64,000 nucleotides of DNA from an uncultured Holophaga sp. (GTDB lineage Bacteria; Acidobacteriota; Holophagae; Holophagales; Holophagaceae). The notes under the pieces were generated by a model. The model saw nothing but the letters and a program-made list of their open reading frames with translations. It did no database searches and was not told the DNA's origin. This document shows, piece after piece, positions 19,697-48,612 of the stretch. The stretch lies in NCBI RefSeq assembly GCF_963677305.1, contig NZ_OY781925.1, forward strand, positions 371,501 to 435,500, in the 5' to 3' direction. Both the position numbers and the translations under genes were made by a program. Within the stretch, counting starts at the first letter, position 1. Each line of letters opens with the position of its first letter.

Positions 19697-19996
19697 ATCG
19701 AAAAGCTGAAAAGCCTTTGGCCACGGATGCACACAGATGAGCACAGATGGATCGCGACCCACCCTGGGTGAGCGCGAGGCCCCGCCTGGGACAGGTTCAG
19801 GAAGGGGTTCGGCCCGTGGACGCGCTGGTGCGTCTCAGGGCCGCACCCCTTCCTGAACGCGGACGGTCCCCGTCCGCCCCCGCGCAGCGGGGCCTCCCAG
19901 GCGGGGCCTCCCGCTCACCCGAGCCGCACCCATCCAGCTTTTATCCGTGCGCATCCGCGCTCATCCGTGGCTGATCTGCTTTCGGCTTTTCCTCCT
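19697..19996 (+). repeat. CACGGAT palindromic element, copy 3 (full length)
   Basis: A full-length copy, closest to copies 1 and 6: GAAAAGCTGAAAAGCC arm, CACGGATGCA/CACAGATGAG/CACAGATGGA iterations, the GTTCAGGAAGGGGT hairpin arm, GCGGACGG-N3-CCGTCCGC, CCCCGCGCAGCGGGG, and the inverse right arm ending in GCTTTTCC. It lies between the divergent dCMP deaminase and lon genes. Bases 19997-20185 after it are GC-rich with only a possible TACACT -10 at about 20159 before lon. Confidence 0.85.
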
Positions 19997-20185
19997 TACG
20001 GTCCATCCTCGGCGCCCTGCCCCTGTCCCCGGCCCCCCAAAGTCAAGCCGCAGGGGCCACCTGACGAAGCAGGGGCGTGCAGGTGGCAGTCCCACGCGGG
20101 GTCCGGTCGGCATCGAAGCCCTGGAGGCCCATCCCCGTTCCCGGGCCCCCGCGGCAAGCTACACTGAACCCCAAAGAGGTACACC

Positions 20186-22627
20186 TTGGCTGAAGAACTG
20201 AACCCCACCCAGATATTCGACGAACAGCCCAAAATCCCCGAGGTCCTGCCGGTCCTGCCCCTGCGGGACGTGGTGGTCTACCCCTATGTGATCCTGCCCC
20301 TCAGCGTCAGCCGCGAGAAGTCCATCCGCGCCGTGGACACCGCCCTGGTCGAGAACCGCATGATCCTGCTCCTATCCCAGAAGCAGACGGAGATGGACGA
20401 CCCCAAGCCCGAAGACCTCTACCAGGTCGGCACCGCAGCCCTCATCGTCCGCGTGCTCAAGCTCCCCGATGGCCGCATCCGCGCCCTGGTCCAGGGCCTC
20501 CAGCGGGTCCGGGTCGAATACTTCACCGAGACCGAAAACGTCTTCAAGGCCCGGGTCGAGCCCCTGGTGGAGCCTGAGAGCCCCAACTCCAGCGTGGAGC
20601 AGGATGCCCTCATGCGCTCGGTCAAGCAGACCCTGGAGAAGGCCGTCGCCCTGGGCAAGAGCCTCAACCAGGAGGTCCTGGTCATCGCCGCCAACCTGGA
20701 CGCCCCCGGGCGCCTGGCGGACCTGGTGGCCTCCAACCTGGAGCTCAAGCCCCCCCAGCTCCAGGAGGTCCTGGAGATCATCGATCCCCTGGCCCGCCTC
20801 AAGCGCATCCACGAGCTCATCATGCGGGAGATCGAGCTGCTGGAGGTCCAGCAGAAGATCACCATGGAGGCCCGGGGCGAGATGGACAAGAGCCAGCGGG
20901 AGTACTACCTCCGCCAGCAGCTCAAGGCCATCCAGCAGGAGCTGGGCGAGACCAACGAGCTGGCCGAGGAGATCCAGGCCTTCCGCGACAAGCTGGCCAA
21001 GCTCACCGTCCCCGAAGACATCATGCTGGAGATCGACCGCAACCTGAAGAAGCTGGAGCGCATGCACCCGGACTCCAGCGAGACGGCCGTCACCCGCACC
21101 TACCTGGAGTGGATGACCGAGATGCCCTGGGGGGTGATCTCCGAGGACAACAAGGACCTGAAGAAGGCCAAGGAGATCCTGGACGAGGAGCACGACGGCC
21201 TGGAGAAGATCAAGGACCGCCTCATGGAGTTCCTGGCGGTGCGCAAGCTCCGCCCCGATCTCAAGGGCACCATCCTCTGCTTTGTGGGGCCTCCGGGGAC
21301 CGGCAAGACCTCGCTGGGCAAGAGCGTGGCCAAGGCCCTGGGCCGCAAGTTCGCCCGGGTCTCCCTGGGCGGCGTCCATGACGAGTCCGAGATCCGCGGC
21401 CACCGCCGCACCTATGTGGGTGCCATGCCCGGACGCATCGTCCAGGCCCTGCACCAGGTCAAGACCATGAACCCGGTCATCGTCCTGGACGAAGTGGACA
21501 AGATCGGCCGGGACATGCGGGGCGACCCGAGCGCTGCCCTGCTGGAGGTGCTGGATCCCGAGCAGAACAACACCTTCCGTGACAACTACATGAACGTGAA
21601 CATCGACCTGAGCCAGGTGCTCTTCCTGACCACGGCCAACGAGCTGGACCCCATCCAGCCCGCCTTCCGGGACCGCATGGAGATCATCAGCCTCTCCAGC
21701 TACACCCTGGAGGAGAAGATCAGCATCGCCGAGAAGCACCTGATCCCCCGCCAGCTCGAAAAGAATGGCATCACCCGGGAGCAGGTGGCCTTCGCCAAGT
21801 CGGGGCTCCGGGCCCTGATCCAGGGCTACACCCGGGAGTCCGGCCTGCGCCAGCTGGAGCGGGAGGTCGGCAGCGTCTGCCGGAAGATCGCCCGGCGGGT
21901 GGCGGAGGAGAAGCAGGAAGGGAAGTTCACCCTCACCGAGGCGAACATCCAGGAGCTCATGGGTCCCCTCAAGCTCCTCAAGGACGAGCGGCTCAAGGCC
22001 CCCCGGGTGGGGGTGGTGACGGGTCTGGCCTGGACCTCCACCGGCGGCGATGTGCTCTTCGTGGAGGCCCTCAAGATGCCCGGCAAGGGCGGGCTGATTC
22101 TCACGGGCCAGCTGGGGGATGTGATGAAGGAGAGCGCCCAGGCGGCGCTGAGCTACATCCGCAGCCGCAGCGAGGCCTTCGGCATCGAGGCAGAGCTCTT
22201 CCAGAAGCACGATATCCACATCCACTTCCCCGAGGGGGCCATCCCCAAGGACGGGCCCTCGGCGGGTCTGGCCATGGCCACGGTCCTGCTCTCGGTCCTG
22301 AAGGGCATCCCGGTGAAGAACACCCTGGCCATGACGGGTGAGATCGACCTGCGGGGCGAGGCCCTGGCCATCGGCGGGCTGAAGGAGAAGTCCCTGGCGG
22401 CCCTGCGGGTGGGGATCAAGGACATCATCATCCCCTTCGCCAACCAGAAGGACCTGGAGGAGATCTCCCCCGAGGTCCGGGCCAAGCTCAGCTTCCACCC
22501 CGTCAAGCACGTGGAGGAGGTCTTCGAGATGGCCCTGACCCAGTGGGAGTGCCCCGACAGGCCGAAGAAGGCCGCCGCGAAGAAGCCTGCCAAAGCCCCG
22601 GTGAAGAAGACCCCCGCCAAGGCCTGA
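20186..22627 (+). CDS. lon: ATP-dependent protease Lon
   Basis: An 813-residue cytoplasmic AAA+ serine protease degrading misfolded and regulatory proteins. The N-terminal LonN domain begins with VLPVLPLRDVVVYPYV. A coiled-coil linker near residues 190-270 is rich in Glu, Lys and Gln. Walker A is GPPGTGKTSLGKS near residue 370 and Walker B is VIVLDEVDKIG. The protease domain has the catalytic Ser in KDGPSAGLAM and Lys in GGLKEKSLAALRVGI. The last 25 residues are an unusual Lys/Ala/Pro-rich tail (AAKKPAKAPVKKTPAKA). The TTG start at 20186 has AGAGG at 7 bases. It is monocistronic with its own terminator. Confidence 0.97.
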   Translation: MAEELNPTQIFDEQPKIPEVLPVLPLRDVVVYPYVILPLSVSREKSIRAVDTALVENRMILLLSQKQTEMDDPKPEDLYQVGTAALIVRVLKLPDGRIRALVQGLQRVRVEYFTETENVFKARVEPLVEPESPNSSVEQDALMRSVKQTLEKAVALGKSLNQEVLVIAANLDAPGRLADLVASNLELKPPQLQEVLEIIDPLARLKRIHELIMREIELLEVQQKITMEARGEMDKSQREYYLRQQLKAIQQELGETNELAEEIQAFRDKLAKLTVPEDIMLEIDRNLKKLERMHPDSSETAVTRTYLEWMTEMPWGVISEDNKDLKKAKEILDEEHDGLEKIKDRLMEFLAVRKLRPDLKGTILCFVGPPGTGKTSLGKSVAKALGRKFARVSLGGVHDESEIRGHRRTYVGAMPGRIVQALHQVKTMNPVIVLDEVDKIGRDMRGDPSAALLEVLDPEQNNTFRDNYMNVNIDLSQVLFLTTANELDPIQPAFRDRMEIISLSSYTLEEKISIAEKHLIPRQLEKNGITREQVAFAKSGLRALIQGYTRESGLRQLEREVGSVCRKIARRVAEEKQEGKFTLTEANIQELMGPLKLLKDERLKAPRVGVVTGLAWTSTGGDVLFVEALKMPGKGGLILTGQLGDVMKESAQAALSYIRSRSEAFGIEAELFQKHDIHIHFPEGAIPKDGPSAGLAMATVLLSVLKGIPVKNTLAMTGEIDLRGEALAIGGLKEKSLAALRVGIKDIIIPFANQKDLEEISPEVRAKLSFHPVKHVEEVFEMALTQWECPDRPKKAAAKKPAKAPVKKTPAKA

Positions 22628-22651
22628 GCGGCCACAGAGCGGACCCCGGAC

Positions 22652-22686
22652 AGAGCCAGGACACCCCCACAGGTGTTCCTGGCTCT
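22652..22686 (+). terminator. Probable terminator of lon
   Basis: AGAGCCAGGA-CACC pairs with AGGTGTTCCTGGCTCT in a long stem with one bulge and a short C-rich loop, 25 bases after the lon stop. Only TCT follows, with no clear T-run, so strength is uncertain. Confidence 0.55.
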
Positions 22687-22705
22687 TCTGACGGAGGTCG
22701 CCGGG

Positions 22706-22832
22706 AATGAAAAGCCTTGGGTCCGCCGATGCACGCCGATAGACGCCGATGGGCTCCGACCCACCCTGGCTTTTATCCGTGCGCATCCGTGCTCATCCGT
22801 GGCTGATGGGCTTTTTCAGCTTTTGATCCCTC
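22706..22832 (+). repeat. CACGGAT palindromic element, copy 4 (short form)
   Basis: A short copy: GAATGAAAAGCCTTGGGTCC on the left, joined through GACCCACCCTGG directly to the right arm (ATCCGTGCGC, ATCCGTGCTC, ATCCGTGG, GGGCTTTTTCAGC). The central hairpins are absent. It fills the gap between the convergent lon and histidine kinase genes. Confidence 0.8.
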
Positions 22833-22875
22833 TTCCTTCATCCTCGTCCATCACCGGGGATCCCCGGCTGGCGCT

Positions 22876-25038
22876 TCAACCTTCACGGAGGGATGGGAAG
22901 CCCTCCAGGGCCTCCAGGGAGCACTCCACCAGGGAGTGGAGTTCCTCCCGATCCGGGGCCTCGCCCCGATCCAGGCCCTCCTCGGCCTCCCGGGCGGCCT
23001 GCCGGAGCTGAGGCATCCCGTACCAGGCCGCCAGCCCTGCCAGACGGTGCAGCGCAAAGGCCACGGTGTCCGTATCCCCCTCCAACCCGGTCAGGCACTC
23101 CAGGGCCGACTCCCGGCAGGCCGGGAGCCCCGCCCGCCAGCCCCCTGGGGGCAGGCTCCCGATCAGCTCCGCCAGGTAGCCCTCGTCCAGCAGGCGCTGC
23201 GGCTCTTCCACCTCCCCTTCCGGCTGGAGCCCCGCCAGAACCGCGGCCAGCTGGGAGCGCCAGAGGGGCTTGGGGAGCACCCCGTCCACCCCGGCCTCCA
23301 GGCAGGCCGTGCGCTGGCTGAGCTCGGTGTCCGCCGTCAGGAGGTGGACCGGGATCGTGGCAGCCCAGGGCGTCGAGAGGGTCCGGATGCGGCGGAAGAC
23401 CTCCAGCCCGTCCATGCCGGGCATGTGCAGGTCCAGAAGCACCAGATCGAAGGGCCGGGTGGCCAGAAGCTCCAGGGCCTGCTGCCCCCCTCCAGCCACG
23501 GTGGGGAGCTGTCCCAGGCTCTCCAGGAGCCCTGCGGTGACGATGCGGTTGGCCTGCACATCGTCCACCACCAGGACCTGCAGCGGGGTCCGCAGGCGCT
23601 CGGGCAGGGAGCGGGGCGCCTCCAGCACGGCCTCCCTGAGGCTCAGGGCGAAGTGGAAGGTGCTGCCCTGCCCCAGGATGCTCTCCACCTGGAGTTCTCC
23701 CCCCATGGCCGCCACCAGATCCCGGCTGATGGCGAGCCCCAGGCCAGTACCGCCGTGCTGGCGCTGGATGGAGTCGTCCTCCTGTTCAAAGGGGCGGAAG
23801 ATCCGCACGAGGGAGCTCTCGGCGATACCCGGGCCGGTGTCCCGGACGCTGAAGGCGCAGCAGAGGCTTCCCTGCGCCTCCCGGGCCAGGCTCAAGCCCA
23901 GGACCACTTCGCCGGACTCGGTGAACTTGATGGCATTGCCCACCAGATTGATCAGGATCTGCCGCAGACGCAGGGGATCCCCCAGCAGATGAGGCGGCAG
24001 CTCGGCGGGGACCTCCAGCCTGAGGGCGATGCCCTTGGTCCGGGCCTGGGGATAGAGCACCCCGTGGACCGTGGCCAGCACCTCCCGGAGGGAGAAGGGC
24101 TCCTGGACCAGCTCGAAGTAGCCGGCCTCGACCCGCGCCAGGTCCAGGATGTCATCCAGGAGCTGGGCCAGCTGGCGCCCGCTGTACCCCACGATCTCCA
24201 GGGGCTGGGCCAGGGATCGGTCCAGCACCCGGGATTCCAGAAGCTGGATGCCCCCCAGGACCCCATTGAGGGGGGTGCGGATTTCGTGGCTCATGATGGC
24301 CAGGAAGCGGCTCTTGGCAGCGTTGGCCCGCCGGGCCTCGGCCTCGGCGGTCTTGCGCTCGGCCACCTCGCGCTGGAGTTCCTGGCGCAGGACGAAGTCC
24401 CGCCGGACCAGGCGGTTCCAGGAGACCTGGAAGGCATAGCCCGCGCCGTTGGCCACCAGGAGGGAGAGGGACAGCAGCAGGGTCGGCTGACCCGTCCACC
24501 CGCTCTGGGGGATCTGATGACCCAGGAAGGGGACGGCGATGATGCCATTGGCCAGGACGGTCATCCACACCCGATTGGGGAGCATGATGTAGGCCATGAG
24601 GATGATCAGCAGGATGAAGGGCAGGCCCCCCGCCGCCGCAGGCCCCTGGGCCTGGAGGAGGATCTCCGCCAACTCGGTCACCCCGATGAGCAGGAAGGCA
24701 CTGAAGAGCAGCCAGCGGAAGGCCGCCCCGGGTCGCCGTGCACTCAGGTAGGTCCCCAGCATCAAGGCACCGCAACCCAGGCGGAGGGCCGCCATGAGGG
24801 CCAGGGGAAGGCCCGGCCCCAGGATGGCGTAGTTCAGGTAGATGCAGGCCACATAGGCGAGCCCGGCCACCCCCAGGACCAGGCGCACCTGGCGCCGGAT
24901 CCGGGGCCAGGCGTCCGCGAAGAAGGCCTGTTCGCGCTGGGGGTCCAGGAACTCGCCGCTGAAGGACGAGAGAGCCACCTCGGCCTCCATCCCATCACCA
25001 GCCGTCCCCGGAGGGGCTGTTCCCGTGGTGTCCGACAT
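22876..25038 (-). CDS. Membrane-bound hybrid histidine kinase with REC and HPt domains
   Basis: A 720-residue sensor kinase. Residues 50-210 contain six hydrophobic helices (VLGVAGLAYVACIYLNYAIL and others) with no large periplasmic loop, so the signal is probably sensed in the membrane. A short coiled coil leads to the phospho-acceptor H-box MSHEIRTPLNG. The ATPase domain has INLVGNAIKFTESG and DTGPGIAESS, then GGTGLGLAIS. A receiver domain near residues 490-610 has VLVVDDVQANR and the phospho-Asp in VLLDLHMPGMDG. The C-terminal HPt-like helix has FALHRLAGLAAWYG. This is a complete His-Asp-His relay, so the output should be a separate regulator not present here. ATG 25038 is chosen over the ATG six codons upstream. 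Confidence 0.88.
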   Translation of the reverse strand: MSDTTGTAPPGTAGDGMEAEVALSSFSGEFLDPQREQAFFADAWPRIRRQVRLVLGVAGLAYVACIYLNYAILGPGLPLALMAALRLGCGALMLGTYLSARRPGAAFRWLLFSAFLLIGVTELAEILLQAQGPAAAGGLPFILLIILMAYIMLPNRVWMTVLANGIIAVPFLGHQIPQSGWTGQPTLLLSLSLLVANGAGYAFQVSWNRLVRRDFVLRQELQREVAERKTAEAEARRANAAKSRFLAIMSHEIRTPLNGVLGGIQLLESRVLDRSLAQPLEIVGYSGRQLAQLLDDILDLARVEAGYFELVQEPFSLREVLATVHGVLYPQARTKGIALRLEVPAELPPHLLGDPLRLRQILINLVGNAIKFTESGEVVLGLSLAREAQGSLCCAFSVRDTGPGIAESSLVRIFRPFEQEDDSIQRQHGGTGLGLAISRDLVAAMGGELQVESILGQGSTFHFALSLREAVLEAPRSLPERLRTPLQVLVVDDVQANRIVTAGLLESLGQLPTVAGGGQQALELLATRPFDLVLLDLHMPGMDGLEVFRRIRTLSTPWAATIPVHLLTADTELSQRTACLEAGVDGVLPKPLWRSQLAAVLAGLQPEGEVEEPQRLLDEGYLAELIGSLPPGGWRAGLPACRESALECLTGLEGDTDTVAFALHRLAGLAAWYGMPQLRQAAREAEEGLDRGEAPDREELHSLVECSLEALEGFPSLREG

Positions 25039-25184
25039 CCTTCCTTCCACCCGCACCTCCTCCGGGGCAAGGCGTCAAGCACCGGAAAAAGACCGCACCC
25101 CACCAGGATCCTGGAACCAGTGTATGCCCCCCGGCAGGCCGGTGGGGAATTCCTCCAGGCATCCGATCCTGCCTGTGATGGGCC

Positions 25185-25502: not shown

Positions 25503-25651
25503 GAGGCGAGTTTAGCGTCTGCACCTGCCCAAGCGAACGGGGGATCGGCGGACCGCAGGGCTTTCCGGAAACGGCACTCTGAGGCACGGGGCCCCGCCAT
25601 GGATCCCGGCGCCCCTCTCCCCAGTCACCCCGGGCCTCACCGTCGCAGGTT

Positions 25652-26575
25652 TCATCGGCAGGCCGTGGCGTTCATCGGCGGACCCTGCTTCTCCCCGCTG
25701 ATGTCGGCGAAGAGCTCGATGAAGTGCCGGGCGGCCTGAGAGAGGTAGCGCTGCCGCATCCAGATGATGGCCGCGCCCGACTCGATGAGCGGATCCACCA
25801 GGAGCCGGGTCTCCAGGTTGGCGGAGGGCAGCAGGCCGATGGCCGCCCGGGGGACCACCGCCACCCCGATACCCGCCTCCGCCCAGCCCAGGGCGGGCAT
25901 CACGTCGTCACTGGTGCACAGGAGGCTGGGCTCGAAGCCGGCCTGGTGGCAGTGCTCTGCGATCATGGACTCGAACTTGCGGTGGATCAGCAGGGGGAGA
26001 CCGGCCAGAGCGGCAAGCGGGAGCGGCTCCCCCCTGCCGAGCAGCTGACGGAAGCCCTCCCGGTGGAAGGCCGCCACCAGGGGCTCCGGTGCCAGACGGA
26101 TGCTCTGGTGGCGCTCATCGTCGATCGCGAAGCGCACCAGGCCGATCTCCACCAGCCCCTGGTCGAGCAGCTCGATGACCTCGATGGACTCACCGGTCCG
26201 CAGCTCGAAGCGGAGTCCCGGATAGCGGGCGCAGAAGACGCTGGCCACCCGCGGCAGCAGCGGGGCCACGGAGGAGGAGGCGATCCCGATGGCCAAGGTG
26301 CCGCGGGTCCCCCGATCCACATCCAGGATCTCCTTTTCGGTGGTGGCCAGCAGTTCCATCAGCTGGCCAGCCCGCAGCTGGAGCAGGCGTCCGGTCTCGG
26401 TGAGCTGGATCCTGCGGTGGCCCCGCTCAAACAGCGTGGTGCCCAGCTGCTCCTCCAGCTGCTTCATCTGGCGGCTCAGGGGGGGCTGGGCCATGTTCAG
26501 GCGCTGGGCAGCCCCGCTGATGTTGCCCGCCTCAGCCACGGCGAGGAAGTGGTGCAGGTCGCGACTGCTCAACAT
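25652..26575 (-). CDS. LysR-family transcriptional regulator
   Basis: A 307-residue LysR-type regulator. The N-terminal winged helix is DLHHFLAVAEAGNISGAAQRL, with QPPLSRQMKQLEEQLGTTLF as recognition helix, followed by a linker helix. The co-inducer domain begins GTLAIGIASSSVAPLLP, the layout of BenM/CatM-type proteins; the effector cannot be read. ATG 26575 is preceded by an AT-rich region with inverted repeats facing the divergent hydrogenase/formate dehydrogenase operon, so regulation of that operon and of itself is likely. LysR control of such an operon is uncommon; FhlA-type control is the known case. Confidence 0.9.
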   Translation of the reverse strand: MLSSRDLHHFLAVAEAGNISGAAQRLNMAQPPLSRQMKQLEEQLGTTLFERGHRRIQLTETGRLLQLRAGQLMELLATTEKEILDVDRGTRGTLAIGIASSSVAPLLPRVASVFCARYPGLRFELRTGESIEVIELLDQGLVEIGLVRFAIDDERHQSIRLAPEPLVAAFHREGFRQLLGRGEPLPLAALAGLPLLIHRKFESMIAEHCHQAGFEPSLLCTSDDVMPALGWAEAGIGVAVVPRAAIGLLPSANLETRLLVDPLIESGAAIIWMRQRYLSQAARHFIELFADISGEKQGPPMNATACR

Positions 26576-26579
26576 GGGG

Positions 26580-26640
26580 ACACCTATATACCAATTAGGT
26601 ATGGTATCCCAATTAAACAAGTATTTTTAGTATGGCAAAG
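26580..26640. promoter_or_regulatory. AT-rich divergent promoter/operator between lysR and the hydrogenase operon
   Basis: A local drop in GC content with TATACC-aatt-AGGTAT (a near-perfect dyad) followed by ATGGTATCCCAATTA, which repeats part of it. The T-N11-A spacing usual for LysR sites can be drawn several ways. It lies immediately upstream of the LysR ATG and about 90-140 bases before the ferredoxin gene. A weak -24/-12-like TTGGGCAGCATCCTGCA at 26684-26700 might serve the operon. Confidence 0.5.
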
Positions 26641-26722
26641 GCCTCACTAAACTCCCTCATGGATCATCCGCTGGTCTGGCCCCTTGGGCAGCATCCTGCA
26701 GCGGTTGGATCGGAGGTTCCCA

Positions 26723-27217
26723 GTGAGTCGATCCCTGCACACCACGGTGATGGTGGATCACCGATTGTGTACGGCCTGCCGTGTCTGCGAGCTGGCCTGT
26801 GCCCAGGCCCATGGAAAGACAGCGTCCCTGACCGTAGGGAGCGTGCGGGAAGCCCTGGTGCCCCGCCTCTTCCTGACGAGGGGCGGGACGCGGGCCCTGC
26901 CGGTGCAGTGCCACCAGTGCGAGGAGGCCCCCTGTCTGGCCAGCTGCCGCAGCCACGCCCTGCGCCGTCAGGGGCAGGCCATCATCGTCCAGGAGGAGCT
27001 CTGCATCGGCTGCCATGACTGCAGCCTGGCCTGTCCCTACGGGGCCATCGAACTGGTGGGCGGCAAGGCCATCAAGTGTGACCTCTGCAGCGGCCGGGCA
27101 GAGGGGCCCGCCTGTGTGGCGGCCTGCCCCTCGGGGGCCCTGAGTCAACCGGACTGGGCAGGCCTGCGGCGCCAGCGCCAGCGGGCCGCCGCAGCGGCGA
27201 GGGAGGTGGCACTGTGA
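26723..27217 (+). CDS. HycB-like 4Fe-4S ferredoxin subunit (first)
   Basis: A 164-residue polyferredoxin of the HycB/HydN type with four [4Fe-4S] cysteine groups: LCTACRVCELAC, CHQCEEAPCLASC, LCIGCHDCSLAC, and CDLC paired with CVAAC. Such subunits carry electrons between formate dehydrogenase and hydrogenase. The GTG start at 26723 has GGAGG 7 bases upstream. The stop overlaps the next start (GTGA), so it is translationally coupled to hydA. The C-terminal helix is Arg/Ala/Gln-rich. In the hydrogen-dependent CO2 reductase of Acetobacterium woodii, homologous HycB proteins form conductive filaments; whether this protein does is inference. Confidence 0.88.
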   Translation: MSRSLHTTVMVDHRLCTACRVCELACAQAHGKTASLTVGSVREALVPRLFLTRGGTRALPVQCHQCEEAPCLASCRSHALRRQGQAIIVQEELCIGCHDCSLACPYGAIELVGGKAIKCDLCSGRAEGPACVAACPSGALSQPDWAGLRRQRQRAAAAAREVAL

Positions 27218-28548
27218 GCCAAGCCCGCGGGATCAGCATCGACCCGGACCTGTGCACCGGATGCCAGCGCTGTCAGGCGGTCTGTCCGGTCGAGGCCATC
27301 AGCGGGGAGCCCGGCGGCCCCCAGATCCTGGACGCATCGCGCTGCGTGCGCTGTGGCCAGTGCATCCGGGTCTGCTCGGGCTTCGACTCGCCCTTCGATC
27401 AGAGCCCAGGGGAGCGCCAGCGCCGTCTGGCGGAGCGCCACCTGCCCCCGGACACGGTGGAACCCCTCTTCGCCGCCCATGATGTGGGGGATCTGGCCCT
27501 GGTACGGGAGGCCTTGCAGAGCTCGGGCCGCCTCCGGGTGGTCCAGTGCGCCCCCGCGGTGCGGGTGGCCATCGCCGAGGAGTTCGGCATGCCCCTGGGC
27601 AGCCTGACCCCGGGCCGCCTCGCCAGCGCCCTGCGGAGCCTGGGCTTCCATCGGGTCTATGACACCAACTTCGCCGCTGATGTGACCGTGATGGAGGAGG
27701 GCCACGAGCTCCTGCAGCGGGCCCGCTCCGGCGGCGTCCTGCCCATGTTCACCTCCTGCTGCCCCGCCTGGGTGCGCCACCTGGAGCTGAATCATCCGGA
27801 CCTGCTGCCCCACCTCTCCAGCTGCAAGTCCCCCCAGCAGATGGGGGGCGCCCTGATCAAGACCTGGGGGGCCCAACTGGAAGGCCTGGCGCCCGAAGCC
27901 CTCTTCAGCGTGGCGGTGATGCCCTGCACCGCCAAGCGCGGCGAGGCGGCCCGCCCGGGCATGGAGGCGAGTGGCGTACGGGATGTGGACGCCGTGCTCA
28001 GCACCCGGGAGCTGGCCTGCCTGCTCAAGGAGGCCGGAATCGACTTCATGACGCTCCCCGAGGGCTCCTTTGACGAGGCCCTGGGCCGCTATTCCGGTGC
28101 GGGCACCCTCTTCGGCTTCAGCGGGGGCGTCATGGAAGCGGCCCTGCGCACCGCCAGCACCCTGCCCGAGGCCGCGGGTCTCGAGCTCAGGACCGCTGTG
28201 GCGGCGGGCCTGGCCGAGGCCGAGGCCCTGCTGGCCAAGCTGCGGGTGGGCCAGGCGGACTTCGACTTCCTGGAGGTGATGGCCTGCCCGGGGGGCTGTG
28301 TCTCCGGCGGTGGTCAGCCCAAGCTCCTGCTCCCGGGCCAGGTCGGGAAGGCCTGGGCCGAGAGGGCGCGGAACCTGCGCCGCCACGATACCGAGCGCCC
28401 CGAGCGGCGCAGCCACGAGAACCCGGCCATCCAGGCCCTTTACACCGACTTCCTGGGGAGGCCCCTGGGCGAGCGCTCCCATCACTTGCTCCATACCCAC
28501 TACGGAAGGGCCTGCTCCCGCCAGGGAGAGGCGGAGGTACCGAAATGA
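27214..28548 (+). CDS. [FeFe]-hydrogenase catalytic subunit (HydA2-like)
   Basis: A 444-residue iron-only hydrogenase. Two N-terminal [4Fe-4S] clusters (LCTGCQRCQAVC at 14-24, RCVRCGQCIRVC at 43-54) precede the H-cluster domain. All three H-cluster motifs are intact: TSCCPAW at 180-186, MPCTAK at 236-241 and EVMACPGGC at 354-362, followed by GGGQP. The FSGGVMEAAL segment has Ser where many enzymes have Thr. It lacks the long N-terminal extension of bifurcating HydA and has no NuoE/NuoF-like partners, so it is probably part of a soluble formate-linked complex. HydE, HydF and HydG maturases are not in the window. It overlaps both neighbours by 4 bases. Confidence 0.93.
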   Translation: MSQARGISIDPDLCTGCQRCQAVCPVEAISGEPGGPQILDASRCVRCGQCIRVCSGFDSPFDQSPGERQRRLAERHLPPDTVEPLFAAHDVGDLALVREALQSSGRLRVVQCAPAVRVAIAEEFGMPLGSLTPGRLASALRSLGFHRVYDTNFAADVTVMEEGHELLQRARSGGVLPMFTSCCPAWVRHLELNHPDLLPHLSSCKSPQQMGGALIKTWGAQLEGLAPEALFSVAVMPCTAKRGEAARPGMEASGVRDVDAVLSTRELACLLKEAGIDFMTLPEGSFDEALGRYSGAGTLFGFSGGVMEAALRTASTLPEAAGLELRTAVAAGLAEAEALLAKLRVGQADFDFLEVMACPGGCVSGGGQPKLLLPGQVGKAWAERARNLRRHDTERPERRSHENPAIQALYTDFLGRPLGERSHHLLHTHYGRACSRQGEAEVPK

Positions 28549-29063
28549 ATCAGTTTGTCGTTGCCGATCACCGGAAGTGCATCGGCTGTCGCACCTGCGA
28601 GGTGGCCTGTACCCTGGCCCACGGGCCCGCATTGGCCGAGCTCAGCGAGGGCAACTTCGCCCCACGCCTGCAGGTGGTGCGGACCGCCCGGGTCACGGTG
28701 CCCATCCAGTGCCGCCAGTGCGAGGACGCCCCCTGCCTCAAGGCCTGCGGTGTGAGTGCACTGCTCCGGCGGAACGGCCTCATCGAGCCGGTGGCCGGAC
28801 GCTGCATCGGGTGCAAGGCCTGCCTCATGGCCTGTCCCTACGGGGCCATCGACCTGGTGTTCGAGCCCGGCAGGGCGGGGAACGGCGCAGTGGAGCCCCT
28901 CAAGTGCGACCTCTGCCACCAGTCGGGGGCGGGCCCAGCCTGCGTGCGGGTCTGCCCCACCGATGCCCTCGGGCTGGTCCAGGAGGCGGATCTGGTCCGG
29001 CAGACCCGCGAGAAGCGGCAGCGGGCGGCCGGAGCCGCGGTTCACAAGTCGGAAACGAGGTAG
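28545..29063 (+). CDS. HycB-like 4Fe-4S ferredoxin subunit (second)
   Basis: A 172-residue four-cluster ferredoxin of the HycB/HydN type: KCIGCRTCEVAC near residue 12, CRQCEDAPCLKAC, RCIGCKACLMACPYGAIDLV and CDLC with ACVRVC. It is a paralogue of the first gene of the operon, with the same Arg/Ala-rich C-terminal tail. It starts by ATGA overlap with hydA and is followed by fdhF after 6 bases. It probably wires the formate dehydrogenase to the hydrogenase. Two HycB-type subunits match the composition of hydrogen-dependent CO2 reductase operons (HycB2 and HycB3). Confidence 0.88.
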   Translation: MNQFVVADHRKCIGCRTCEVACTLAHGPALAELSEGNFAPRLQVVRTARVTVPIQCRQCEDAPCLKACGVSALLRRNGLIEPVAGRCIGCKACLMACPYGAIDLVFEPGRAGNGAVEPLKCDLCHQSGAGPACVRVCPTDALGLVQEADLVRQTREKRQRAAGAAVHKSETR

Positions 29064-29069
29064 ACCAGC

Positions 29070-31211
29070 ATGACGCACAAGGTATCCACCGTCTGTCCCT
29101 ACTGCGGGAGCGGCTGCAAGCTCTGGCTCCATGTCGACCAGGGCGAGATCATCAAGGCCGAGCCCGCCGATGGGCGCAACAACGAAGGCGAGCTCTGCCT
29201 GAAGGGCTATTACGGCTGGGACTTCCTCAGGGACAACAAGCTCCTGACCAAACGCCTCAGCAAGCCCCTGATGCGGCGCACCCGGGAGGAACCCCTCCAG
29301 GAGACCACCTGGGAGGAGGCCATCCGCTTCGCCGCCGACCGCCTGGCCGCCATCAAGCTCAAGCACGGCCCGGATGCCATCATGGCCACCGGCTCGGCCC
29401 GGGGCCCGGGCAACGAGGCCAACTACGCCATGCAGAAGTTCGTGCGGGCCGTCCTGGGTACCAACAACATCGACCACTGTGCCCGGGTCTGTCATGGCTC
29501 CTCCGTCGCCGGGCTGCAGAGCACCCTCGGCAACGGGGCCATGTCCAACTCCATCCCGGAGATCGAGAACAGCAAGTGCATCCTGATCTTCGGCTACAAC
29601 CCCGCCGACTCCCACCCCATCGTGGCGAGACGCATCCTCAAGGCCCAGGCCAAGGGGGCCCGGGTCATCGTGGTGGACCCCCGGCAGACGGAGCAGGCCC
29701 GCACCGCCGATCTCTGGCTGCGACTCAACAACGGCGCCAACATGGCCCTGGTGAACGCCTTCGGCCATGTCCTGCTGGAGGAGCATCTCCACGACCCGAG
29801 CTATGTCAGCCAGTTCACGGAAGGCTTCGAGGCCTATCGCCAAGGAGTGGCCGCCTACGCCCCAGAGGCGGTGGAGCAGATCACCGGCCTCCCCGGAACC
29901 CAGGTGCGCGAGGCCATGCGCATCTATGCGTCCGCTGGCGATGCCGTCATCCTCTGGGGCATGGGGGTGACCCAGTTCGGTCAGGCCGTCGATGTGGTCA
30001 AGGGCCTCTCCTCCCTGGCTCTCCTGACCGGCAACCTGGGGCGCCCCAACGTGGGGGTGGGACCGGTGCGGGGCCAGAACAATGTGCAGGGGACCTGTGA
30101 CCTGGGCACCCTGCCGGACATGTATCCGGGCTACCAGCCCGTCACCGACAACCAGGTGCGGGCCAAGTTCGAAGCGGCCTGGGGCGTGGAGCTCTCCCCC
30201 AGGCCGGGCTATCGCCTGACGGAGGTGCCCCACCTGGTCAAGGAAGGCAAGCTGAAGGCCTACTACATCTTCGGCGAGGATCCGGTGCAGAGCGATCCGG
30301 ATGCCGCCGGGGTCCGGGCCGCCCTGGACGCCATGGACTTCGTGATCGTCCAGGACATCTTCATGAACAAGACGGCGCTGCATGCCGATGTGATCTTCCC
30401 GGCCACCGCCTGGGGTGAGCACGAAGGGGTCTACTCCGCCGCCGACCGGGGCTTCCAGAAGTTCAACAAGGCTGTGGAACCCAAGGGGGATGTCAAGCCG
30501 GACTGGGAGATCATCGGGCTGCTGAGCAGCGCCATGGGCTATCCCATGGCCTACACCAGCGCCGAGGAGATCTGGGAGGAGATGCGCCACCTCTGCCCGC
30601 TCTATGCCGGGGTCACCTACCAGCGCCTGGAGGAGCTGGGCACCATCCAATGGCCCTGCCCTGACGAACAGCACCCCGGCACCCCCTATCTCTACGGGGG
30701 CAACCGCTTCAACACGCCCAGCGGCAAGGGGCTGCTCTTCGCGGCAGCGTGGCGGGCCCCGGGTGAGCTGCCGGATGCCGAGTACCCCCTGGTGCTCTGC
30801 ACCGTGCGCGAGGTCGGCCACTACTCGGTGCGCACCATGACCGGCAACTGCAAGGCCCTGAAGACCCTGGCGGACGAACCCGGCTTCGTGCGGATCAGTC
30901 CGGTGGAACATGCGGCCCTGGGGGTGCAGGATGGGGACCTGGTCTGGGTGGCCTCCCGCCGCGGCAAGGTACTCAGCCGGATCCAGGTCAGCGAGCGGAT
31001 CAACGAGGGCTCGATCTACATGACCTACCACTGGTGGATCGGCTCCTGCAATGAGCTGACCCACGACCACCTCGATCCCATCTCCCGCACGCCCGAGTTC
31101 AAGTACTGCGCCGCCAGGATCGAGGCCATCCCCGACCAGGCCTGGGCCGAGACTTACCTGGAGCGGGAGTATCTGGCCCTGCGCCAGCGGATGGGGTGTG
31201 TGGGGGCCTAG
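29070..31211 (+). CDS. fdhF: Molybdo/tungsto formate dehydrogenase, FdhF type, cysteine form
   Basis: A 713-residue bis-MGD formate dehydrogenase, collinear with E. coli FDH-H along its length. The N-terminal [4Fe-4S] site is C-x2-C-x3-C (Cys9, Cys12, Cys16) plus Cys43 in ELCLKGYYGWDF. The active-site residue is Cys141 in ARVCHGSS where E. coli has selenocysteine; the codon is TGT, so no selenocysteine machinery is needed. The adjacent His142 is conserved, as are GYNPADSHPIVAR, GMGVTQF, GNLGRPNVGVGPVRGQNNVQG and the C-terminal MGD domain with VREVGHYSVRTMTGNC. It is cytoplasmic with no Tat signal. It ends the operon and should interconvert formate and CO2 with electrons from the hydrogenase. 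Confidence 0.95.
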   Translation: MTHKVSTVCPYCGSGCKLWLHVDQGEIIKAEPADGRNNEGELCLKGYYGWDFLRDNKLLTKRLSKPLMRRTREEPLQETTWEEAIRFAADRLAAIKLKHGPDAIMATGSARGPGNEANYAMQKFVRAVLGTNNIDHCARVCHGSSVAGLQSTLGNGAMSNSIPEIENSKCILIFGYNPADSHPIVARRILKAQAKGARVIVVDPRQTEQARTADLWLRLNNGANMALVNAFGHVLLEEHLHDPSYVSQFTEGFEAYRQGVAAYAPEAVEQITGLPGTQVREAMRIYASAGDAVILWGMGVTQFGQAVDVVKGLSSLALLTGNLGRPNVGVGPVRGQNNVQGTCDLGTLPDMYPGYQPVTDNQVRAKFEAAWGVELSPRPGYRLTEVPHLVKEGKLKAYYIFGEDPVQSDPDAAGVRAALDAMDFVIVQDIFMNKTALHADVIFPATAWGEHEGVYSAADRGFQKFNKAVEPKGDVKPDWEIIGLLSSAMGYPMAYTSAEEIWEEMRHLCPLYAGVTYQRLEELGTIQWPCPDEQHPGTPYLYGGNRFNTPSGKGLLFAAAWRAPGELPDAEYPLVLCTVREVGHYSVRTMTGNCKALKTLADEPGFVRISPVEHAALGVQDGDLVWVASRRGKVLSRIQVSERINEGSIYMTYHWWIGSCNELTHDHLDPISRTPEFKYCAARIEAIPDQAWAETYLEREYLALRQRMGCVGA

Positions 31212-31263
31212 GATTCGGCGGCGTGACACTGCAGCTTGAGCGACCTCCGGGCGCATGGAACTT

Positions 31264-31518
31264 TGAAAGCAGGAGCCACGGATGGGCACGGATCTCCACG
31301 GATAAAAGCCATGGATCCACCCAGTGCAGGGTGTCTGGGGCCGCCCCGCTGCGCGGGGGCGGTCGGCAAGCCGACCGCGTTCAGAGGGGGAGGGGCAGCC
31401 AGGGGCACGTTGGCGTGCCCTGGTCTGACCCTCCCCCTCTGAACCAGCCCCAGGCAACCCCGGTGGGTCGCTGACTATCCGTGTCCATCTGTGCCCATCC
31501 GTGGTCCGAAAGGCTTTC
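31264..31518 (-). repeat. CACGGAT palindromic element, copy 5 (inverted, variant subfamily)
   Basis: Outer arms CACGGATGGG and CACGGATCTC on the left and ATCCGTGTCC, ATCTGTGCCC and ATCCGTGG on the right. The centre is in the opposite orientation to copy 1 (GCCCCGCTGCGCGGGGGC, then CGGTCGGC-AA-GCCGACCG, then CGTTCAG). The stretch TGCAGGGTGTCTGGGGCC is shared with copy 10. It occupies most of the 459-base gap between fdhF and ftsY; a parS site lies near the end of that gap. Confidence 0.8.
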
Positions 31519-31634
31519 CTGCACCGGACCCCTTCCACCGCACTGCCCTGGAAGGACAAGACCTCGCAGGGGGACTCCTCCCGGTCAGCCCGACCGTGCT
31601 TCTCGCATCCTCGCAGGATTGGGGGATAATGGCC

Positions 31635-31650
31635 TGTTCCACGTGGAACA
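31635..31650. other. parS: parS centromere-like site 1 (perfect palindrome)
   Basis: TGTTCCACGTGGAACA, a perfect 16-bp palindrome matching the ParB-binding parS consensus (TGTTNCACGTGNAACA). It lies just upstream of the TTG start chosen for ftsY. Two further near-perfect copies lie at 48690 and 58169, all within 16 kb of dnaA, as expected for chromosomal parS. Confidence 0.9.
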
Positions 31651-33742: not shown

Positions 33743-34030
33743 CCAAGAGCTGAACAGCCTTGTAGCCACGGATGCGCACAGATAAACACGGATGGGGCCC
33801 GAACCACCCTGGGTGACCGGGACGCCCCGCCTGGGACAGGTTCAGGGAGGGGTTCGGCCCGTGGACGCGCCAGCGCGTCTCTGGGCCACCCCCCTACCTG
33901 AACGCGGACGGTTCCCGTCCGCCCCCGCGCAGCGGGGCGTCCAGGCGTGGCAGCCCGGCCACCCGAGCCGAACCCCTCGATCTTTTATCCGCGTTCATCT
34001 GCGTTCGGTGGACGATCTGCTTTTCATCCC
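33743..34030 (+). repeat. CACGGAT palindromic element, copy 6 (full length)
   Basis: A full-length plus-orientation copy: AGCTGAACAGCC arm, CACGGATGCG/CACAGATAAA/CACGGATGGG iterations, the central GTTCAGGGAGGGGT arm, GCGGACGG-N3-CCGTCCGC, CCCCGCGCAGCGGGG, and a right arm with ATCCGCGTTC, ATCTGCGTTC and GCTTTTCATCC. It sits between the convergent ribD and TauE/SafE genes and ends 15 bases from the transporter stop codon. Confidence 0.85.
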
Positions 34031-34907: not shown

Positions 34908-35152
34908 GATGAAAAGCGGAAAAGCCTTTGAGCCACAGATGCGCACAGATATCCACGGATGGGTCGCGACCCACCCGGAGTGTCCGGGACTGGTTCAGGG
35001 CGGGAGGGTCAGACCAGGACACGCCTGCGTGTCCCTGGCTGCCCCTTCCTCCCTGAACGCGGACGGCCTGCCGTCCGCCCCCGCGCAGCGGGGCGTCCCG
35101 GACACCCCGAGCCGCACCCATCCCTCATCTGTGGCTATTCCCTCATGGGCTT
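34908..35152 (+). repeat. CACGGAT palindromic element, copy 7
   Basis: GATGAAAAGCGGAAAAGCC arm, CACAGATGCG/CACAGATATC/CACGGATGGG iterations, the central GGTTCAGGG and CCTGAACGCGGACGG with CCGTCCGC, CCCCGCGCAGCGGGG, and a shortened right arm (ATCTGTGGC). The centre also has a GGACACGCCTGCGTGTCC hairpin not found in copy 1. It fills the gap between the divergent TauE and phosphoesterase-like genes. Confidence 0.8.
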
Positions 35153-41657: not shown

Positions 41658-41830
41658 GATGAAGAGCCCAAAAGCCTTCTGTCCGCCGATCAACGCCGAT
41701 GCACGCAGATGGGTCACGACCCACCCGGGGGTGCCTGGGGCTGGTTCAGGAAGGGGGCGGCCCAGGTACCCCATGCCATACCCTCCCATCTTTTATCGGC
41801 GTGAATCGGCGGACAAACTTTCATCCCCGT
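41658..41830 (+). repeat. CACGGAT palindromic element, copy 8 (short form)
   Basis: A short, more divergent copy: GATGAAGAGCCCAAAAGCC, ATCAACGCCG and ATGCACGCAG iterations, GACCCACCC, GGTTCAGGAAGGGG, then a right arm with ATCGGCGTGA and ATCGGCGGAC. Central hairpins are mostly lost. It lies between nrdR and glyA, both on the minus strand. Confidence 0.7.
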
Positions 41831-43323: not shown

Positions 43324-44712
43324 ATGACCCCGAACGACGCTGAAACCATCTGGGAGACTCTCCGGCAGGGTCTGGCCCAGAAGCTGCCGGAACGCACGTA
43401 CCAGGACTGGGTGGAGCCCTGCCGGGCCCTCAAGTACGACGGCAGTTCCCTCTGGCTCCAGACCTCCTCCCCCTCGGCCAAGATCTGGATCGAGCAACAG
43501 TTGGCGGAGGAGTTCCACGATGTCCTGGTCCAGGCGGACCTGGCCCACCTGAAGCTGGTCTTCTCGGTCCAGGGGGACAACGTCAAGGCCGAGAAGACCG
43601 CCGCCACCAAGTCCCGGAGTGTGGTGGTGCAGGCCCCGGCCCTGGAGGAGGAGGACCCCTTCCCGCAGGGCTTTCAGCGCTACACCCTGGACCGCTTCGT
43701 CGTGGGCCCCAGCAGCCAGCTGGCCTTCGCTGCGGCCAATGCCATTGTGGAAAACTACGGCCGGGCCAGCGCCAGCCTGAACATGAACCCCCTCTTCATC
43801 TATGGGGGCTCAGGCCTGGGCAAAACCCACCTCATGATCGGCATCGGCAAGGGCCTCAAGGCCCGCAGCCCCGAGCTGCGGATGACCTACCTGAAGGTGG
43901 AGAACTTCTTCAACGAGCTGACCGTCGCCATCCGCAGCAAGAACACCGAGCCCCTGCGCAAGAAGTACCAGCAGCACGATGTGCTCCTGCTGGACGATGT
44001 GCAGATCCTGGGGAAGATGGAGCGCACCCAGGAGGAGATCTTCTACATCTTCGAGCACCTGCTTCAGTACGGTAAGCAGATCATCATCACCTCCGACAAG
44101 CCCCCGCAGAAGCTCGAGGGGCTCCACGACCGGCTCATCACACGCTTCAAGTGGGGACTCACGGCGGACATCCAGCCCCCGGACTTCGAGACCCGCGTGG
44201 CCATCCTTCGCAAAAAGCTGGAGGAGGATGTCTTCCAGGACCTCAACGCCCGGGTGCCCGAGGAGGTCCTCACCTTCATCGCCCACAAGGCCAAGGGGAG
44301 CGTCCGCGATCTGGAGGGGCTCCTGACCCGCGTAGTCTTCCAGAGCAGCTTCCTGGGCCTTCCCGTGAGCATTGAGGTGGCCGCCCAGGCCTTCCAGGGC
44401 CAGACGGGCCAGGAGGCCACCACCAACATCTCCCTGGACCGCATCTGCCGCATGACCGCCGAGACCTTCAACATCAGCTTCAACGATCTGGTGAAGAAGA
44501 AGACCCGCATGCAGAACATCCTGCTGCCCCGTCAGGTGGCCATGTACCTGGCCCGGGAGCTGACCTCCAACTCCCTGGTGGAGATCGGGAAGTCCTTCAA
44601 CAACCTGCACCACAGTACGGTCATGAACTCCATTGAGCGGGTGAAGACCCTGATGCAGAAGGATCCCGATCTCCACAAGACCGTCCACTCCCTGCTCAAC
44701 AGCATCTCCTGA
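43324..44712 (+). CDS. dnaA: Chromosomal replication initiator DnaA
   Basis: A 462-residue initiator. Domain I (residues 1-80) starts ETIWETLRQGLAQKLPERTY. Domain III has Walker A in YGGSGLGKTHLMIGIG, Walker B in VLLLDDVQILG and the box VII region before DLEGLL. Domain IV ends with the DNA-binding helix-turn-helix. In the DnaA-box recognition loop, E. coli RDHTTV is here LHHSTV, so base-contacting residues differ. ATG 43324 has only GGTGAT upstream. It is followed by dnaN after a 216-base gap with DnaA-box-like sequences; recF is not between dnaN and gyrB. One TGTGGAAAA (a TTTTCCACA box) lies inside the gene at 43746. Confidence 0.97.
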   Translation: MTPNDAETIWETLRQGLAQKLPERTYQDWVEPCRALKYDGSSLWLQTSSPSAKIWIEQQLAEEFHDVLVQADLAHLKLVFSVQGDNVKAEKTAATKSRSVVVQAPALEEEDPFPQGFQRYTLDRFVVGPSSQLAFAAANAIVENYGRASASLNMNPLFIYGGSGLGKTHLMIGIGKGLKARSPELRMTYLKVENFFNELTVAIRSKNTEPLRKKYQQHDVLLLDDVQILGKMERTQEEIFYIFEHLLQYGKQIIITSDKPPQKLEGLHDRLITRFKWGLTADIQPPDFETRVAILRKKLEEDVFQDLNARVPEEVLTFIAHKAKGSVRDLEGLLTRVVFQSSFLGLPVSIEVAAQAFQGQTGQEATTNISLDRICRMTAETFNISFNDLVKKKTRMQNILLPRQVAMYLARELTSNSLVEIGKSFNNLHHSTVMNSIERVKTLMQKDPDLHKTVHSLLNSIS

Positions 44713-44928
44713 AAATGCAGGGTACTGGCTCGATCTCCACAGACCCCTGCGGAAAACCGCAGCCTTGGATGTTCAATTCGAGGTACCGGGGGGATGTCCG
44801 CAGGGGAAACCCACAGCTCCGGGCTTTGGATCCGCATCCTGTCCCTTCTCTCTTTTTCCATGTACAATCAGGGGTTTGATGCCCTTTTCCGCAGCATTCC
44901 ACGTACCTCAGCATGATCAGGGTGAGGC
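44713..44928. other. oriC: Candidate replication origin (oriC) between dnaA and dnaN
   Basis: A 216-base gap holding several 9-mers near the DnaA box TTWTNCACA: ATCTCCACA at 44733, TGCGGAAAA (reverse TTTTCCGCA) at 44748, ATGTCCGCA at 44794, AAACCCACA at 44807 and TTTTCCGCA at 44885. The two TTTTCCGCA copies are inverted to each other. A hairpin CTGCGG-aaaa-CCGCAG covers 44747-44762. There is a pyrimidine-rich TTCTCTCTTTTTCC stretch but no long AT-rich unwinding region. Position beside dnaA and between parS sites supports the call; the boxes are imperfect. Confidence 0.5.
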
Positions 44929-46056
44929 ATGAACTTTCAAATACAGGTATCCAGAGATCGTCTTGATCGGACCTTGGGCATCCTCAAGCACGCGCTGGAG
45001 AGGCGGGTCACCCTGCCGATCCTTCAGCACATCCTCGCGGACGTGAATGACCAGGAGATGACCCTCAAGGCCACCGACATGGAGCTGGCCTTCGAGGCCA
45101 CCGTTCCCGTGGAGGGCAACGGCTCCCGCCTGGTGGCCATTCCGGGGAAGAAGTTCATCGACACCGTCAAGGCCTACCCCGAGGGGCTCCTGACCATCGA
45201 GTGGCCCGAAGTGGCAAACCGGATCTGGCTCCGCGCCAAGGGCTTCAACTCCGAGCACAATATCCAGCCCGGGGAGGGCTTCCCCGAACTCCCCAAGCCC
45301 GATGAGACCCTTCCCCGGGTCACGGTGCCTACCCTGGCCTTCCGCAAGGCCATCCTGCTGGGCTCCATCTCGGTCTCCAAGGACGCCACCAAGCCCGCCC
45401 TCTCAGGTGTGCTGCTCCACTTGACCCCCTCCTTCATCCGGGTGGTCTCCACCGATGGCTTCCGCCTGGCGGTGGTCGAACTCCCCTGTGAGACCGGGCT
45501 CACCTCAGAGGCCCGCCTGACCGTGCCCAAACGGGCCCTGGACCTCCTCCCCTCCGCCCTGGCGGAGGACGGACAGCTCACCCTCTCCTGGGACGACCGC
45601 AGTCTCTTCATGGAGCAGCCCGGGCTCAAGTTCAGCACCCGCCGGGTCACCGGGAACTATCCCGCCTACGAGAAGGTTTTGCCAGCCGAGCTGCCCCGCC
45701 GGGTGATCATCGACCGCGAGGACTTCCTCAAGACCCTCAAGGTCGTCGGCCTCAAGAAGGACGACTACAACAAGAATGTCCGGCTCTTCTTCGAATTCCC
45801 CAACCTCCGCGTCTTCTTCCAGCACCCGGATGAAGGCGTCAACCAGGGCACCCTCAGCTTCAGCGGCGAGGAGAACCCTCTGGAACTGGCCTTCAACATC
45901 GACTACCTGACGGAGCTTCTGGAGCGCATCCCGGGCGACGAGGTGGTCTACCAGTTCCGCGACGATGTGGGCCAGGGCATTTTCATGTCCCCCAGCATCG
46001 AGGACATGAGCTTCCGCTATGTGCTCATGCCCGTGAAGTTCGCGAACCCCAGCTAG
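44929..46056 (+). CDS. dnaN: DNA polymerase III beta sliding clamp
   Basis: A 375-residue clamp with the usual three-domain repeat. The N-terminus MNFQIQVSRDRLDRTLGIL, LPILQHILADV and TDMELAFEATV mark domain I. Domain II includes LSGVLLHLTPSFIRVVSTDGFRLAVVE. The C-terminal PIP-like pocket end is SIEDMSFRYVLMPVKF, close to the conserved M-P-M/V end. It tethers the replicative polymerase to DNA. GGTGAGG precedes the ATG. It lies in the dnaA-dnaN-gyrB-gyrA block, with a 24-base gap to gyrB. Confidence 0.97.
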   Translation: MNFQIQVSRDRLDRTLGILKHALERRVTLPILQHILADVNDQEMTLKATDMELAFEATVPVEGNGSRLVAIPGKKFIDTVKAYPEGLLTIEWPEVANRIWLRAKGFNSEHNIQPGEGFPELPKPDETLPRVTVPTLAFRKAILLGSISVSKDATKPALSGVLLHLTPSFIRVVSTDGFRLAVVELPCETGLTSEARLTVPKRALDLLPSALAEDGQLTLSWDDRSLFMEQPGLKFSTRRVTGNYPAYEKVLPAELPRRVIIDREDFLKTLKVVGLKKDDYNKNVRLFFEFPNLRVFFQHPDEGVNQGTLSFSGEENPLELAFNIDYLTELLERIPGDEVVYQFRDDVGQGIFMSPSIEDMSFRYVLMPVKFANPS

Positions 46057-46062
46057 TGCTGA

Positions 46063-48612
<2,550 letters not shown>

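Follow-up and report, generated by a model that had tools for sequence, protein, structure and literature searches.

The closest described relatives of the system considered here are the hydrogen-dependent CO2 reductases (HDCRs) of Thermoanaerobacter kivui (PDB 7QV7) and, compared by description, Acetobacterium woodii, in which a formate dehydrogenase (FdhF), an [FeFe] hydrogenase and two ferredoxins come together without membrane or bifurcating subunits. According to the available text of the respective reports, the T. kivui HDCR is a cysteine- and tungsten-containing enzyme devoid of selenocysteine, and corresponding clusters occur in 25 organisms (PMC6119302); HDCR-like clusters are present in 18 organisms, including five sulfate reducers, as well as in many Paenibacillus (PMC6288185); a cysteine-containing complex of Clostridium beijerinckii, CbFdh/Hyd, has been produced in active form in E. 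coli JM109(DE3), purified and found active in both directions (PMC12905484); and HDCR filaments form through the C-terminal helices of both ferredoxins (PMC10413684). Here, we describe an operon encoding the same four kinds of subunits in an uncultured Holophaga sp. of the Acidobacteriota, located on the plus strand at positions 26723-31211 of the window, that is, of the entire 64,000-nucleotide stretch analysed (contig NZ_OY781925.1, positions 371,501 to 435,500). The best reading of the operon is a probable HDCR-like soluble complex linking H2 and CO2 to formate. More specifically, we consider it reasonably probable, if well short of assured, that the four subunits form a soluble complex interconverting formate with H2 and CO2, and that this complex is a mosaic, with an HDCR-derived HycBa-HydA half and a HydN-FdhF half derived from formate hydrogenlyase (FHL), carried in a single inserted block together with a LysR-type regulator gene.

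The four open reading frames are intact and tightly packed. The first, hycBa (26723..27217, GTG start), encodes a 164-aa iron-sulfur (Fe-S) protein of the HycB4 type with four predicted [4Fe-4S] clusters, assigned to the hydrogenase side; hydA (27214..28548, GTG start) encodes a 444-aa [FeFe] hydrogenase of the HDCR type; the hydN-like gene (28545..29063, ATG start) encodes a 172-aa Fe-S protein, again with four predicted [4Fe-4S] clusters, on the formate dehydrogenase side; and fdhF (29070..31211, ATG start) encodes a 713-aa formate dehydrogenase of the FDH-H type with a cysteine at position 141. Both the hycBa/hydA and the hydA/hydN-like junctions are 4-bp overlaps and 6 bp separate the hydN-like gene from fdhF, in agreement with the first-pass annotation of this DNA, which had described four overlapping or near-overlapping genes. 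Each of the four starts (26723, 27214, 28545 and 29070) is preceded by a GGAGG- or AGG-like ribosome-binding site. A scan for promoters and terminators returned no promoter-like sites and two terminator-like sites (1.7 expected), and the fold of the 3' region is weaker than those of all 200 shuffles. In a search confined to the locus, no [NiFe] group 4 hydrogenase or membrane subunit genes were found adjoining the operon, its neighbours being the LysR-type gene on the minus strand and, downstream, ftsY (named by eye), so that the annotated lack of membrane hydrogenase subunits holds at this locus.

The hydrogenase half resembles that of the T. kivui enzyme. HydA comprises the Pfam domains Fe_hyd_lg_C and Fe_hyd_SSU preceded by an N-terminal two-cluster ferredoxin part, and carries the motifs TSCCPAW, MPCxxKxxE and ExMxCxGGCxxGGGxP, which we take to be the marks of the H-cluster; the earlier claim of complete H-cluster motifs is thereby confirmed. 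Among solved structures, its best match is the HydA2 subunit of the T. kivui HDCR (517 bits, 56% identity over the pieces compared), the next chain scoring 338 bits. In a tree of 80 sequences, HydA falls within a 57-member HDCR clade that includes T. kivui (support 100), whereas five other [FeFe] hydrogenases from the same genome fall outside this clade; matches below 150 bits, including three weaker ones from this genome, were left out of all trees. With this placement, an assignment of HydA to the bifurcating or another known group of [FeFe] hydrogenases is rejected; the first-pass annotation had named a grouping with bifurcating or sensory hydrogenases as a refutation of its reading. The product of hycBa finds its best PDB match in T. 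kivui HycB4, the one hydrogenase-side ferredoxin of this kind in that complex, and is one of 38 sequences beyond a branch supported at 99 in the Shimodaira-Hasegawa-like approximate likelihood ratio test (SH-aLRT), the other 37 all being HycBs encoded directly upstream of an HDCR-type hydA. Both window ferredoxins contain 16 cysteines, all invariant in alignments of 14 (HycBa) and 13 (HydN-like) sequences, as expected from the annotation of two four-cluster ferredoxins. Judged by sequence, the HycBa-HydA half belongs to the HDCR lineage.

The finer position of HydA was assessed with 48 sequences, leaving out the non-HDCR sequences except for two outgroups, those of 10 near-identical loci, and one further locus (L099). 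With a long-branched Halodesulfovibrio sequence removed, HydA groups with the sulfate reducers (support 96/95). In approximately unbiased (AU) tests, a single clade of the window HydA and the sulfate-reducer sequences is not rejected (p 0.433), nor is a position of HydA outside the sulfate-reducer sequences (p 0.206), whereas placing it with 39 sequences apart from those of the sulfate reducers, locus L032 and T. kivui is weakly rejected (p 0.027); most of these 39, as far as seen, are accompanied by an FDH-H-like FdhF.

The formate half points elsewhere. FdhF exceeds the curated cut-off of TIGR01591 (861.7 versus 666.25 bits), ruling out a molybdoenzyme other than formate dehydrogenase. Residue 141 is a cysteine (codon TGT), as annotated in the first pass, whereas the equivalent position in Escherichia coli FDH-H is printed as X (selenocysteine); the T. 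kivui enzyme likewise has cysteine in place of selenocysteine. FdhF scores higher with FDH-H of E. coli (977 bits) than with the FdhF of the T. kivui HDCR (668 bits), but this by itself is not unusual, because many HDCR FdhFs are FDH-H-like. In a phylogeny with FHL sequences added, for which the sequences of 18 near-identical loci were dropped, the window FdhF groups with seven FHL-type FdhFs, those of two Acidobacteriota genomes (G330 and G306), Rhodovastum, Azospirillum, E. coli, Pantoea and Proteus, with support of 99/96, or 100/98 without the long-branched G306 sequence. AU tests reject its grouping with 18 HDCR FdhFs of Firmicutes, spirochaete and termite-gut type (p 0.015), with these 18 plus four Sporomusa-type sequences (p 0.006) and with six sulfate-reducer-type sequences (p 0.010). 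FdhF thus falls in no HDCR lineage sampled, in trees that did not contain the T. kivui and A. woodii FdhFs themselves.

In the best tree, the adjacent HydN-like protein joins (support 96/97) the G330 FHL ferredoxin and HydN-type proteins from four proteobacteria, of which two are annotated or known as HydN and the other two carry just an annotation as 4Fe-4S proteins. The tree included the upstream HycB of Desulfobaculum, which fell among the sulfate-reducer sequences, apart from that of the window. Against NCBIfam, the protein scores 170 bits with AegA (cut-off 1003) and 157 bits with HydN (cut-off 260), both below the cut-offs. In the [NiFe] FHL loci of Pantoea alfalfae, Rhodovastum atsumiense, Azospirillum argentinense and G330, an Fe-S protein is encoded directly upstream of an FdhF that is 64.3-68.9% identical to the window FdhF, although the hydrogenase is there of the [NiFe] type with membrane subunits (as annotated, or by eye in G330) rather than soluble and of the [FeFe] type. 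The G330 locus (contig C134), from another family of the same phylum, encodes a selenocysteine-containing FdhF 69% identical to that of the window, beside a HydN-like ferredoxin and near [NiFe] FHL-like genes (by eye). The HydN-FdhF half appears to descend from the FHL lineage, although the placement of the ferredoxin is not beyond doubt. With HycBa and HydA grouping with HDCRs, and the HydN-like protein and FdhF with FHLs, the operon would consist of two halves of apparently different ancestry, with the boundary between hydA and the hydN-like gene dividing them.

Gene order also sets the operon apart from HDCR loci. Named relatives were gathered with two N-terminal patterns and 80 of at least 209 were kept; 55 of these loci have a HydA above 400 bits, and in 43 of the 55 a formate dehydrogenase gene is in view. 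Among the matches listed, this gene lies upstream on the same strand in 41 of the 43 HDCR-type loci (L035 and L047 carry additional formate dehydrogenase-like genes on the opposite strand downstream), in L076 and L080 it is found solely downstream and on the opposite strand, and none of the 43 has it downstream on the same strand, as in the window, where fdhF comes last rather than before the hydrogenase. The window cluster also differs from HDCR clusters in lacking fdhD, which is present elsewhere in the genome. Six FHL-type loci could be read, and four of them (Rhodovastum, Pantoea, Azospirillum and G330) share with the window a small Fe-S gene directly preceding fdhF; the Proteus locus was not counted among the six, its record lacking annotation there.

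Several observations weigh against a mosaic origin. In the remaining two of the six FHL-type loci, the arrangement differs, fdhF and hydN being far apart in E. coli and the Fe-S gene following fdhF in G306. The groups submitted to the AU tests were picked after the trees had been seen. The identity of the window FdhF to that of the G330 FHL (68.9%) is nearly equal to its identity to a Paenibacillus HDCR FdhF (67.9%), with E. coli FDH-H at 58.1%. For the HydN-like protein, a grouping with the downstream HycB of Clostridium muellerianum is not rejected in the AU test (p 0.131), and in a wider quick tree, built after removing 17 near-identical loci and any ferredoxin match not exceeding 60 bits, its group attains an SH-aLRT of just 80. 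When the Halodesulfovibrio sequence is kept, the window HydA pairs with it (95/90), which was flagged as two long branches meeting and runs counter to the simplest history of HydA, and the letter make-up of HydA is itself flagged as deviant, making its fine placement within the HDCR clade unsure. Finally, the estimated contamination of G330 is 8%, and long branches and a small sample underlie the mosaic as a whole. An alternative is that the operon is an ordinary HDCR inherited as a unit, in which fdhF was merely moved from upstream to downstream and the conflict between lineages is a tree artefact. The subunit kinds, the Paenibacillus FdhF, the placements of HydA outside the sulfate reducers and of the second ferredoxin with the Clostridium HycB that survive the AU tests, and the flagged branches and composition are all compatible with this view, but FdhF is rejected from each of three HDCR groupings, the gene order of the window is absent from the HDCR-type loci compared and the ferredoxin beside fdhF sides with HydN in the best tree; we therefore regard inheritance as a unit as unlikely.

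The first-pass annotation had interpreted the operon as an HDCR with two HycB-like ferredoxins. The lineage of HydA, the gene set and the first ferredoxin, which is of the HycB4 type, are in line with that interpretation, whereas FdhF and, less firmly, the second ferredoxin, which groups with HydN rather than HycB, fall outside the HDCR lineages sampled. Given that the lineage of FdhF departs from those of the HDCRs sampled, we class the operon as an HDCR-like variant with an FHL-descended formate half rather than an HDCR proper.

As for how such a mosaic might work, we infer that the four proteins would join in one soluble complex converting formate reversibly to H2 and CO2. Electrons would move in either direction along a chain linking the Mo/W site and cluster of FdhF, through four clusters in the HydN-like protein and another four in HycBa, to the N-terminal clusters and finally the H-cluster of HydA, so that a hydrogenase half of HDCR lineage would be coupled to a formate half of FHL lineage at the contact of the two ferredoxins. 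Helices are predicted at the C-termini of HycBa (residues 145-163) and the HydN-like protein (147-171), in models too weak to be relied on (mean predicted local distance difference test scores of 65.0 and 55.1). The apparently different ancestry of the modules that meet at the hydA/hydN junction would also fit two separate enzymes, HycBa-HydA and HydN-FdhF, sharing nothing but a transcript. That junction, however, is a 4-bp overlap and, according to the available text of PMC12905484, the four corresponding proteins encoded by C. beijerinckii genes purify together, which leaves two separate enzymes improbable. The C. beijerinckii CbFdh/Hyd, compared by description, shares with the window a soluble HydA/HycB/HycB/FdhF composition with cysteine in FdhF, but its fdhF belongs to a predicted operon of its own, located upstream, and both operons include formate dehydrogenase maturation genes (PMC12905484, from the text available). 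Returning to a single complex of mosaic origin, we tentatively put forward a more specific version, in which a HydN-FdhF cassette of the membrane-bound [NiFe] FHL lineage has been wired through HycB4 onto an HDCR [FeFe] hydrogenase. Such a natural hybrid would be a soluble '[FeFe]-FHL', might have a direction bias or filament state unlike those of both parents, and would travel as one self-contained unit that brings along a LysR-type regulator; the order of evolutionary events that led to it is likewise our inference.

Comparison with a genome of the same genus (G332) delineates the insertion. G332 carries lon, a gene for a 105-aa protein, ftsY, ribD and five further genes in the order of the window, but lacks the LysR gene and the operon. 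The matching flanks end at 25503 and resume at 31636 in the window, and the corresponding places in G332 are 36 bp apart, leaving a 6132-bp (6.1-kb) block (25504..31635) between the 105-aa gene and ftsY that is absent from G332 and comprises the LysR gene, the operon and a dispersed repeat copy. The GC content of the block (69.1%) is close to that of its flanks (67.9 and 69.5%). Four more family genomes likewise have a lon-ftsY-ribD stretch devoid of all four genes. At E <= 1e-90, an HDCR-type HydA is encoded by one of 77 family genomes and one of 396 phylum genomes (two overlapping sets), both times the genome considered here, which rules out that HDCR is characteristic of either the family or the phylum. 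At E <= 1e-190, FdhF is found in seven of the 396 phylum genomes, namely, this one, G330 (69% identity), G306 (51%) and four others (44-46%). The repeat copy at the downstream end of the block occupies 31240-31600, and partial copies lie elsewhere in the window, at 34921-35107, 33766-33942, 19710-19983, 272-398, 41671-41760, 58284-58328, 59379-59481 and 22764-22804. At 22876-25056, flanked by lon and the 105-aa gene, the window also carries a gene resembling hybrid histidine kinases, which G332 lacks at that place. Further along the window, dnaA-, dnaN-, gyrB- and gyrA-like genes (named by eye) stand in a row at 43324-51328, so that the origin of replication probably lies close to 43 kb. Elsewhere, a complete HDCR-type cluster with a selenocysteine-containing FdhF is borne by a 72.6-kb plasmid of Desulfobaculum bizertense (NZ_CP090010.1), and a plasmid of this kind is a possible vehicle for the transfer of HDCR-type clusters.

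The divergent gene at 25652..26575 (minus strand) matches models of the LysR family, although all 25 matches shown stay below their respective cut-offs. The 147-bp gap between this gene and hycBa holds ten T-N11-A strings, among which the ATACC-N5-GGTAT dyad at 26588..26602 has the best arms (four of five positions) and is suggestive of a LysR box. Because the LysR gene is absent from G332 together with the operon and the dyad lies between the two, its product is the likeliest regulator of the operon, as far as can be judged from the locus.

The genome, a single contig estimated to be 97% complete, encodes the maturases HydF and HydG, both above cut-offs, and FdhD outside the cluster. The first-pass annotation had proposed looking for these proteins and for Wood-Ljungdahl genes, and had named a lack of hydrogenase maturases as a refutation; such a lack is not observed, whereas the AcsB/CdhC domain PF03598 has no match in the genome, in a search that yielded positives in two of 14 control genomes, both archaeal, and did not extend to CooS. 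This domain presumably marks bacterial AcsB as well; acetogenesis through AcsB is ruled out by the lack of a match, and the genome differs in this respect from those of T. kivui and A. woodii. No pyruvate formate-lyase (PFL) was found in the genome, the sole PFL-like gene encoding a 4-hydroxyphenylacetate decarboxylase (1608.4 bits, cut-off 1150), which rules out PFL as a formate source. The large subunit of this decarboxylase is encoded at 20158-22851 of the contig, next to its likely small subunit and activase (by eye), a gene set that suggests aromatic amino acid fermentation. At 2474064-2477570, an [FeFe] hydrogenase gene with a Tat- or lipobox-like leader (by eye) is followed by genes for HmcB/HybA-like Fe-S and HybB-like membrane proteins, together a putative exported, quinone-linked [FeFe] hydrogenase.

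Regarding the physiological direction of the same complex, operation as a soluble FHL, releasing H2 and CO2 from formate, is a serious possibility that falls somewhat short of an even chance. The FHL lineage of the formate half is in its favour, and the same role has been proposed for Paenibacillus HDCRs, going by the available text of PMC6288185; however, with the only PFL-like gene encoding a different enzyme, no internal formate source is evident, and related complexes are reversible, judging from the text available. That the complex would act as a CO2 reductase, whose formate would either feed one-carbon metabolism or be excreted as an electron sink, is only slightly less probable. A formate-tetrahydrofolate ligase gene adjoined by a FolD-like gene (by eye), the lack of PFL and five other [FeFe] hydrogenase genes that could supply H2 argue for this role, but without AcsB/CdhC no demand from the acetyl-CoA pathway is evident, and a second formate dehydrogenase, with a NuoF-type partner and adjoining FdhD, is encoded about 7 kb from the ligase gene and could serve instead. 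Given that neither an internal formate source nor AcsB is apparent, neither direction is strongly favoured. By analogy, the complex may simply link the pools of H2 and formate, as has been written of such soluble complexes (PMC6288185, in the text available).

The first-pass annotation had seen the interest of the operon in a selenium-independent HDCR outside the classical acetogens, but such cases are already in print, as is apparent even from the available portions of PMC6119302, PMC6288185 and PMC12905484, and an HDCR outside acetogens alone would add little. Selenium independence is ruled out as a novelty as well: among the matches listed, 43 FdhFs from 42 HDCR-type loci comprise 30 with a TGA (selenocysteine) codon and 13 with a cysteine codon, so that cysteine in FdhF is not unusual; it is likewise present in the FHL-type enzymes of Rhodovastum, Pantoea, Azospirillum and Proteus. 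A literature search, including the accessible part of PMC9137090, retrieved no HDCR from Acidobacteriota, and a narrow search of open-licence papers, including that of PMC9474812, retrieved no published account in which an [FeFe] hydrogenase of the HDCR kind is combined with HydN and FdhF. What is new here is probably an HDCR-like complex with an FHL-descended formate half, 'HDCR-like' being the right term for its probable working. If the mosaic is true, the formate and hydrogen halves would be exchangeable where the two ferredoxins touch. The operon would then allow one to ask, in a naturally occurring system, which of the halves determines whether CO2 reduction or formate breakdown is preferred, a question that bears on the storage of hydrogen as formate.

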